NCBI GenBank assembly: GCA_949358305.1
Contig: OX442314.1
Location: 41,982,581-42,046,580, forward strand
Source of the DNA: Strigamia acuminata
Taxonomy: Eukaryota > Arthropoda > Chilopoda > Geophilomorpha > Linotaeniidae
DNA length: 64,000 bases
Direction of reading: 5' to 3'
Made by a program: the position numbers and the translations under genes. Below the pieces are notes generated by a model. That model was given only the letters and a program-made list of their open reading frames with translations, had not been told where the DNA came from and ran no database searches. Shown in pieces: positions 58,130-60,229 of this stretch (position 1 is the first letter of the stretch; each line of letters opens with the position of its first letter).

Positions 58130-58300
58130 TTAAAAGTTCTCCTCCGCTTCCTCTTCGCGATAGTACGCTCGAAACTCCAAACTCTTTCCGTCGTCCGCCG
58201 TCGAACCTTTCGATTCCCCGTTCTCAAACTTCTTGCTGCCTCCAAATGTACATTGCGTTGTGTTCTTGAATGCTTTTCCCTCTTTGGTGAACATAGTTAC
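58130..58300 (-). pseudogene. C-terminal part of an unknown minus-strand gene, split by an LTR element
   Basis: 56 codons (MFTKEGKAFKNTTQCTFGGS ... FRAYYREEEAEENF) end with TAA at 58130-58132. The frame continues from 59890 on the other side of the LTR element, where the target duplication GTTAC lies within coding sequence. The product is not recognised. Confidence 0.55.
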
Positions 58301-58516
58301 TGTTGTGTCCCCACTTAGGAAACTATTAATTGGATTGATTGCTATTACGGATTGTGATACATTTGATTGTTAGAATTGTAATGATGTAATGAGCGAATTT
58401 GGTTACCTTGGAAACTGTTAGTAAATAAATGAGTCGACTGCCTAAATTCATGAGTGAATGTTGTGAAGTTTTGTTTGGGTCTCAAAATGGTCTAAGAATG
58501 TATAAGAGATTCAACA
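58301..58516 (+). repeat. miniature LTR element, 5' LTR
   Basis: 216 bp; repeated at 59674-59889. Confidence 0.95.
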
Positions 58517-58713
58517 GTGGTATCCACGATGGGATACAGGACTCATGAGGTGTTTTTAATGTGTTGGAATGGAAATTAAGTAAAGTGGATGACTTACTTT
58601 TTGGCGTGATTTTTGGGCCTGTTCCATCGGACTTAGCGCGCAGGGGCGAGGTTTTTCCAGCGGTGCAGATAAGTGTCGTTAATATTTGTGGCTAATTTGA
58701 GAGATATTTTGCC

Positions 58714-59493
58714 ATGGCACAGATGGTGCTTGGGGTTGTGCCCCCATTTACTGGAGTTTCCCTTCAAAACTGGACGTCGTGTGAAGAGACGTTCCGGCAT
58801 TTTGTCATTCTTAACGAGACCAAGAATGACAACATAGTACCGTTATTGCCCGCAGTGGTGGGTACGCTGACCTGCGAGAAAACGAAGCAGACTTTGAAGG
58901 AAGTGGCGACGATGACGAGCATCAACAAGGCGCGCAAAATGCACTGGTTCGAGAGGTTCTCGTGGTTCGTGAGTTCGGAGAACTACCTGGTGATCGGCGG
59001 AAGGGACCAGCAGCAGAACGAGATCGTGGTGAAGCGCTACCTGCGTGCGGGCGACGTGTACGCGCACGCCGACCTTCACGGCGCCAGCGGCATCGTCATC
59101 AAGAACCCGAGTGCCAAGGAGATCCCTCCCAGGACGCTTAACGAGGCCGGCACGATGGCCGTGTGCAGCAGCGCTGCTTGGGAGAGCAAGGTTGTCACCA
59201 GCGAGTGGTGGGTCGACCCCGACCAGGTGTCAAGAACGGTGCCTACCGGCGAGTACTTGACCACCGGCAGTTGCATGATTCCCGGCAGGGAGAATTATCT
59301 GCCTTCGTGTTACCTCGTCATGGGTTTTGGATTTCTGTTCAAGTTGGACGAGGAGAATATTCCCAACCATAAGGACGAGAGGAGAGTTATGACTGTGAAC
59401 GACGAGGGCGTCGGGTCAGCGCAGATAGACGAGAACACTCAGGAAGTGGAAATCGCGCTACAGGAGATACGGCAGAGGAAGATGCGGCGATAG
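58714..59493 (+). CDS. gag-like/NEMF NFACT-R fusion protein
   Basis: 259 aa. Residues 1 to about 52 ([20 protein letters not shown] ... VVGTLTC) look like the start of an LTR-retrotransposon gag. From about 53 ([20 protein letters not shown]) to about 230 the sequence closely follows NEMF/Rqc2/Tae2, including [50 protein letters not shown] and [12 protein letters not shown]: the NFACT-R domain. NEMF binds stalled 60S subunits and adds C-terminal alanine tails in ribosome quality control. The N-terminal NFACT-N domain and coiled coils are missing. No intron is present, and codon use is GC-rich unlike the flanks. It ends RQRKMRR; another frame beyond reads like a proline-rich tail to 59594. Confidence 0.88.
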
Positions 59494-59673
59494 TGGAACC
59501 GGAAGAGATTCCACTGGTTAATGTGCCCAGGCGAGTGGAGCCAACACCAGCCCCACCTCCAGCGACCAAAGTGACGACACGGAAAAAGAAGTAGAAAAGA
59601 AACAAGCAAGAATTTTAAGCATAAATCGTTTTATTTTGAAATACAAAAATTGCAATTACATAGTGGGGAGGAA

Positions 59674-59889
59674 TGTTGTGTCCCCACTTAGGAAACTATT
59701 AATTGGATTGATTGCTATTACGGATTGTGATACATTTGATTGTTAGAATTGTAATGATGTAATGAGCGAATTTGGTTACCTTGGAAACTGTTAGTAAATA
59801 AATGAGTCGACTGCCTAAATTCATGAGTGAATGTTGTGAAGTTTTGTTTGGGTCTCAAAATGGACTAAGAATGTATAAGAGATTCAACA
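59674..59889 (+). repeat. miniature LTR element, 3' LTR
   Basis: 216 bp, preceded by the purine tract and followed by the duplicated GTTAC. Confidence 0.95.
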
Positions 59890-60161
59890 GTTACTGTGCA
59901 GGTCAGGCGCAGCTTTACCCTGATTCCATTCGAATCTCGATTAACCGCCGCCATCTTCCTTCTCATGTAATGTTTGATCCAACTCTGTCTTCTCTCCTTC
60001 GCTCGATTCACCTCGGCATATTTCACCGTATTCAACGCTTTTTCGGCACTAACCGTTACTTCATGTCGACCACTTGTGGTTGCTCCGTTCTCTTCTTTGT
60101 GGGATGAACCGCTTTCAACCAGCTGTCTTCCTTTGCCGTCGGTGTTCGAATTAGGCCCCAT
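59890..60161 (-). pseudogene. upstream part of the unknown minus-strand gene split at 58300
   Basis: The minus-strand frame from ATG at 60161 (MGPNSNTDGKGRQLVESGSS) runs through RHEVTVSAEKALNTVKYAEV and RRKMAAVNRDSNGIRVKLRL to the target duplication, then enters the LTR. The frame is open upstream of 60161 for some codons, so this may be an internal exon. Not recognised. Confidence 0.5.
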
Positions 60162-60229
60162 CTCTTCAGATTTGCATCCTGGTCCACGGTACCGATTTTG
60201 TCCCCATCTTGGGTGGTTTCACCCTCAAT

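Follow-up and report, generated by a model that had tools for sequence, protein, structure and literature searches.

The element we investigated in the genome of the centipede Strigamia acuminata is very probably a recent non-autonomous insertion of the Ty3 type, in which the internal region has been replaced by spliced NEMF mRNA and which carries this sequence as unconstrained cargo with a history of template switching. It lies at positions 58301-59889 of the window, the stretch of 64,000 nucleotides that was analysed (C1:41982581-42046580); the genome searched with it comprises 237,517,015 bases in 157 contigs. We refer to the copy in the window as W and to four further places that were compared closely with it as A, B, C and D.

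Structure of the Window Copy

W is a complete non-autonomous LTR element of 1,589 bp, with all of its features on the plus strand. The 5' LTR (58301-58516) and the 3' LTR (59674-59889) are of the TG...CA form, are 216 bp long and agree at 215 of 216 positions, and comparison of the flanks reveals the 5-bp target-site duplication (TSD) GTTAC on both sides of the element (58296-58300 and 59890-59894). A polypurine tract (PPT) recognized by eye stands ahead of the 3' LTR at about 59663-59673. A sequence-only reading of this DNA had described the matching LTRs, the duplication and the purine tract, and all three were borne out. The primer-binding site (PBS), TGGTATCCACGATGGG (58518-58533), starts one base past the 5' LTR and is complementary to the 3' end of tRNA-Arg(UCG) plus CCA. 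A search pattern composed of the complement of this site and a T-loop, with at most one mismatch allowed, matched the genome once, with one mismatch, and its reversed control did not match at all; ARAGORN identifies the single match as a tRNA-Arg(TCG), and the 3' end of this tRNA gene is CCCATCGTGGATA. With its TG...CA LTRs, 5-bp TSD, PBS and PPT (the last by eye), W has the hallmarks of the Ty3/mdg4 type and is a non-autonomous derivative of such a retrotransposon. W encodes neither RT, RNase H nor integrase.

What W does encode is a single intact fusion frame of 259 aa (58714-59493), as the sequence-only reading had stated, with a NEMF part whose size needed correction: the frame consists of about 54 Gag residues, about 195 NEMF residues (aa 57-251; not 178) and 8 final residues that are the element's own polyprotein tail read out of frame. 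The NFACT-R domain (PF05670) occupies aa 82-190, or 58957-59283, with a Pfam E-value of 4.6e-39, which confirms that an LTR retroelement has captured the NFACT-R domain of NEMF and fused it to the start of gag. The suggested comparison of the frame with NEMF proteins gave a match to residues 503-680 of human NEMF with an E-value of 5.6e-81.

The site of insertion has features of its own. When the flanks 58130-58300 and 59895-60218 are put together, the insertion site lies within a frame of about 164 aa on the minus strand, and the insertion of W interrupts this open frame. Two copies of the first 310 nt of the right flank, at 81% identity, are present on C5.

Related Copies in the Genome

A DNA search of the S. 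acuminata genome with W returned 35 matching pieces, and a search for PF05670 across the genome returned six matches: one each in W, A, C and the host NEMF gene, and two pieces that lie together at a single locus on C3. The latter, a further NFACT-R-bearing place (C3:1481141-1481463; L024, L025), may be CCDC25. Scoring in both searches was confined to the best candidates, and the remaining matches of the DNA search were judged via the PF05670 search alone, which among the best candidates scored revealed no additional NEMF-bearing element. The genome-wide search for copies with the same fusion, which had been proposed as a check, thus yielded A and C.

Copy A (C1:34634626-34642336) has a start and a NEMF part like those of W and in addition 1,324 nt that are absent from W. 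It contains a single open frame of 734 aa, arranged as Gag-NEMF-X-tail with its joins in frame, and its leader holds a nested insertion with its own gag-pol frame. The 1,324-nt deletion in W is located at a GGAG repeat (59463-59466, from match coordinates and the letters themselves) and has removed everything from the remaining NEMF through X into the tail; because of it, the remnant of the C-terminal polyprotein tail in W (59467-59594, from sequence comparison) is out of frame with the fusion. W is an A-type element shortened by deletion. The word miniature, which had been applied to the element, holds for W only, as a deletion derivative, and not for A with its 734-aa fusion.

Copy C (C1:45622937-45643212) is a diverged, NEMF-bearing copy whose tail frame is offset from that of A, and an insertion of about 17.9 kb divides it in two; this insert (L011 ~6605 to L013 ~4493) has a frame that by eye resembles CCHC plus integrase. 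Copy D (C6:6460436-6462383) is truncated. Copy B (C1:23542764-23574114) is a gag-pol element with RT, RNase H and integrase but without NEMF, and so is a further relative at C4:2638301-2644201; the three domains stand in that order in a related gag-pol copy (L039) and, in two halves, in B, which is split by an insertion. The insert in B is about 25.8 kb long (L014 from 5556 to L015 1311) and is flanked by 1.1-kb direct repeats that are 99.9% identical. The gag-bearing relatives (L014, L039-L044) read on into gag in 7/7 cases, without other cargo; L016 has no gag start and is uninformative on cargo. We infer that gag-pol relatives of this kind may have mobilized W.

Each copy has a 5-bp TSD of its own (A ATTTT, B ACGCC, C AGTGT and D CAAAT, next to the GTTAC of W), and the two LTRs are identical at 216/216 positions in B and at 218/219 in C. 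In the LTRs of A, the first 174 compared bases agree, and of the last 41 only 25 do (L009 4626-4840, L010 2121-2336). Simple reverse transcription gives no explanation for this pattern, which looks as if one U5 end derived from another subfamily.

The Gag-NEMF junction recurs at three TSD-bounded sites, and therefore cargo and element move together. The earlier proposal that the element moved after the capture agrees with the TSD and near-identical LTRs of W and with the same join, next to TSDs of their own, in A and C. An LTR element that merely landed next to, or around, a processed NEMF pseudogene of the ordinary kind would also account for the intron-less NEMF part; however, one junction found at three sites, each within a separately TSD-flanked LTR element, makes this highly improbable. 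An assembly artefact is hardly credible at all: we found no support for one, the TSD of W is intact, the junction is also present in the copies at other sites, and the genome note of Strigamia acuminata gives the assembly a QV of 59.6 (PMC10556566).

Origin of the Host Sequences

The host NEMF gene is located at about C1:2021643-2027382, on the same chromosome as W, and has many exons. The captured stretch begins just ahead of NFACT-R and in W spans 58887-59466. Three host NEMF introns are missing from A and C, and in the host gene the GT...AG sites fall exactly at the joins; the first of the three lies inside the shorter NEMF part of W, from which this one host intron has been removed. In the intron-bearing parental gene, with which a comparison had been recommended, the introns fall exactly at positions where the captured copies lack them, and this exact removal in A and C argues for capture from mRNA. 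Since A and C share the Gag-NEMF join and, relative to the host, a deletion of 8 residues and an insertion of 1, NEMF was apparently taken from spliced mRNA in a single capture. Independent captures in A and C are excluded by the common junction and the indels. Two findings had been named as contrary to a capture, namely the lack of other copies together with an assembly artefact, and parental introns or flanks in the NEMF part; neither was encountered.

At the gag/NEMF join, W has a 10-nt microhomology recognized by eye, AGAAGATGAA (58877-58886), which occurs in host NEMF and in the gag of the relatives. Among the best 120 of 1,513 passing proteins (7,997 candidates scored), we found no relative of the fusion in other species; PF05670 was present in 120/120 of these proteins, and the best local alignment covered at most 47% of the fusion.

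The segment X, about 150 aa between NEMF and tail in A with a coiled-coil character predicted by eye, points to another host gene. If the matches to the tail in A, B and D are set aside, 80/83 of the matches to the X stretch fall on C3:5.3-7.6 Mb. At one locus there, nine pieces of 21-91 nt match X with 89-100% identity and E-values up to 3e-4, with the spacing expected of exons, and an open frame downstream of the X-matching pieces encodes a TRAF/MATH domain (E 8.8e-23). X matches a chain of exon-like pieces from a family of which one member has a MATH domain downstream, and on this ground X, which is found in A only, is a second host-derived fragment, apparently spliced and taken from a TRAF-type gene. 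The C3 region itself (L037, L038) is a large tandem family of short exon-like pieces, with the TRAF/MATH frame in L037; among the best literature matches on TRAF/MATH expansion, we found no report that names Strigamia.

Mosaic History of the Fusion

The 5' part of W is a composite. Its leader (58534-58713) is of the B type, with 77/84 identities to B in 58517-58600 and 109/113 in 58601-58713, and so are gag codons 1-22 (58714-58779; 65/66 identities to B, 51/66 to C). From codon 23 to about codon 54 (58780-58876), gag is of the C type: in the alignment, 58780-58866 has 59/73 identities to C with 14 gap columns, and 56/87 to B. The gag of W is thus B-like up to codon 22 and then C-like, with a recombination breakpoint near 58780.

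The divergence between copies differs along their length. Between A and C, dS is 0.12-0.15 in the NEMF part but 0.70-0.91 in the tail, and dS between the tails of A and B is 0.04. The low value for NEMF next to the high value for the tail argues that the Gag-NEMF block crossed between backbones that had diverged earlier, and that it probably recombined into a B-type backbone. A transfer of this kind is as expected for template switching in mixed particles. The dS between the gag parts of A and C, 0.42 over 45 codons, is above the NEMF value and counts against this explanation; we ascribe it, on few sites, to the first 22 codons of A, which are B-like. The LTRs of C differ at 1/219 positions and the first 174 compared bases of the LTRs of A are identical, and therefore most of the changes in the cargo are older than the present insertions.

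A sequence of template switches would account for these copies. While reverse transcribing inside a particle, the polymerase would have switched at the 10-nt match from element RNA to a co-packaged NEMF mRNA, and a later switch back to element RNA would have created the Gag-NEMF-tail frame. Further switches would account for the transfer of the block to the B-type backbone, for the TRAF fragment and for the loss of 1.3 kb. Since then, the element would have been copied by the enzymes of gag-pol relatives with the same LTR, leader and primer site, and the NEMF piece would have been a passenger, drifting without constraint on NEMF function.

Constraint on the Captured Domain

In another reading, the NFACT-R fragment would be a working, selected protein, either a competitor of host NEMF on complexes of 60S and peptidyl-tRNA or an aid to translation of the element or packaging of its RNA. 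The frames are open in A and W, Pfam still recognizes NFACT-R, and the 67 changes polarized with the host on the branches to A and C include no stop (expected 2.48, P 0.078). These changes divide into 14 synonymous and 21 non-synonymous in A and 12 and 20 in C; the host together with the shared stem has a further 17 and 11. A plain site count gives omega values of 0.39 for A (P 0.010) and 0.43 for C (P 0.027). However, if the mutation spectrum is kept, omega becomes 0.74 for A (P 0.22) and 0.77 for C (P 0.27), not significantly below 1: random placement of changes of the same kinds gives 11.6 synonymous changes in A and 10.1 in C, and A and C together have 26 against 21.7 expected (P 0.15).

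The amino acid positions that changed also argue against a selected protein. Across 120 aligned NEMF homologues, 10/36 amino acid changes in A and C, 19 of the 36 being contributed by A and all lying in the captured part to which the test was confined, fall in columns that are at least 99% invariant, with 7.7 expected, and the changed columns are typical in their conservation (0.56 versus 0.556). As a control, 50 pairs of real NEMF proteins that are 86-95% identical have only 1/1,662 changes at invariant columns, with 359 expected; these pairs are overlapping rather than independent, and the conservation count used for a pair left that pair out. Invariant NFACT-R residues that real NEMF proteins retain are therefore not kept in the captured copies, where examples of their replacement are F to C, R to P and A to V in A, Y to H, A to P and G to A in C, and S to G and K to E on the shared stem. 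The candidate reading that purifying selection acts on this domain was dropped in view of the non-significant spectrum-kept omega and a conservation test without constraint.

The fusions also lack NFACT-N and NFACT-C, PF05670 being the sole Pfam family above the cut-off in the W frame, in A and in the C piece, and W lacks most of NEMF on either side of NFACT-R. Cryo-EM of the ribosome-associated quality control (RQC) complex shows the N- and C-lobes of NEMF jointly contacting the P-site tRNA (PMC4321881); of these two lobes, the fusions have only part of one. We consider a selected protein very unlikely, and the suggestion in the sequence-only reading that the fragment competes with the host quality-control factor finds no backing in a frame without NFACT-N and NFACT-C and without conservation of NEMF function. 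Because changes strike invariant residues at the chance rate, the captured domain is not being maintained as NEMF and is best read as cargo. The stop-free frame, the in-frame joins of A and the crude omega give a weak hint that a readable frame may have been kept up.

Cargo could be useful in other ways than as a protein. As nucleic acid, it might, through its identity to an essential host mRNA, shield the element from silencing by small RNAs or be a source of small RNAs that act on NEMF. The block has been retained on two backbones without amino acid constraint, and runs of at least 20 nt identical to spliced NEMF number 9 in W (longest 60), 17 in A (longest 58) and 17 in the 3' part of C (longest 88). 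However, recent common descent alone would yield such identity, and there are three copies only among the best-scored candidates; a function as nucleic acid is very improbable. We also think it very unlikely that the NEMF block acts as a cassette that can be transferred and aids whichever LTR backbone holds it, at the RNA level or as in-frame filler and not as a protein of ribosome quality control. Such a cassette would explain that two anciently diverged but recently inserted backbones share an open frame without amino acid constraint, and, if it exists, a fragment of an essential gene would shield the element against silencing by small RNAs.

Comparison with Known Elements

With passenger cargo as the preferred reading, the element can be placed among known cases of host gene capture. 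Acute transforming retroviruses carry a piece of host mRNA in frame with gag, have pol replaced and depend on a helper. The centipede element resembles them in its host piece fused in frame to gag, in the replacement of pol and, as far as can be inferred here, in helper dependence; unlike in those viruses, the cargo has no known phenotype, and no selection on it was detected. TRIM elements have no coding capacity and are about 1 kb or less, whereas W has a 259-aa frame and 1,589 bp. Like PbTRIM of ants (PMC3532108), W is short, non-autonomous and bounded by LTRs; unlike that element, W carries a coding host fragment and derives by deletion from a longer fusion element.

The closest precedents that we found are the metazoan capture of mRNA (PMC5408686) and maize Bs1 (PMC13317346). 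In the LTR-mediated retroposition that Tan and coworkers described, according to the review cited, cDNA of an mRNA and an element is joined by template switching at microsimilarity. The centipede fusion likewise joins an mRNA to an element at microsimilarity, but the chimera retains both LTRs, the PBS and the PPT and is present at three sites. Bs1 is an LTR element that has transduced pieces from three host genes, and cargo like that of Bs1 is the best reading of the centipede element: in both, an LTR element captured several host gene fragments serially and formed a hybrid frame, the host sequence lies inside the LTRs with its introns spliced out, the element moved after capture, and more than one host gene is involved (here in A only). 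Unlike Bs1, the present case concerns an animal host, NEMF and TRAF-type cargo, and cargo placed on two diverged backbones through recombination, and the fusion is known from genome sequence, not from expression or host use. New here is an animal example in which cargo was passed between backbones; a literature search returned no paper on capture of NEMF by an LTR retrotransposon.

In the S. acuminata elements, the serial capture of host genes by an LTR retrotransposon can be followed at good resolution in an animal. One genome holds the donor gene, the capture junction, the gag-pol relatives, the recombinants and a deletion product, and therefore capture, transfer between lineages and decay can be read from it. 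A test with a control also shows here that neither an open frame nor a strong domain match in a captured fragment need imply retained function. If small RNAs showed an effect of the cargo on silencing, this would bear on the question of why elements carry host genes.
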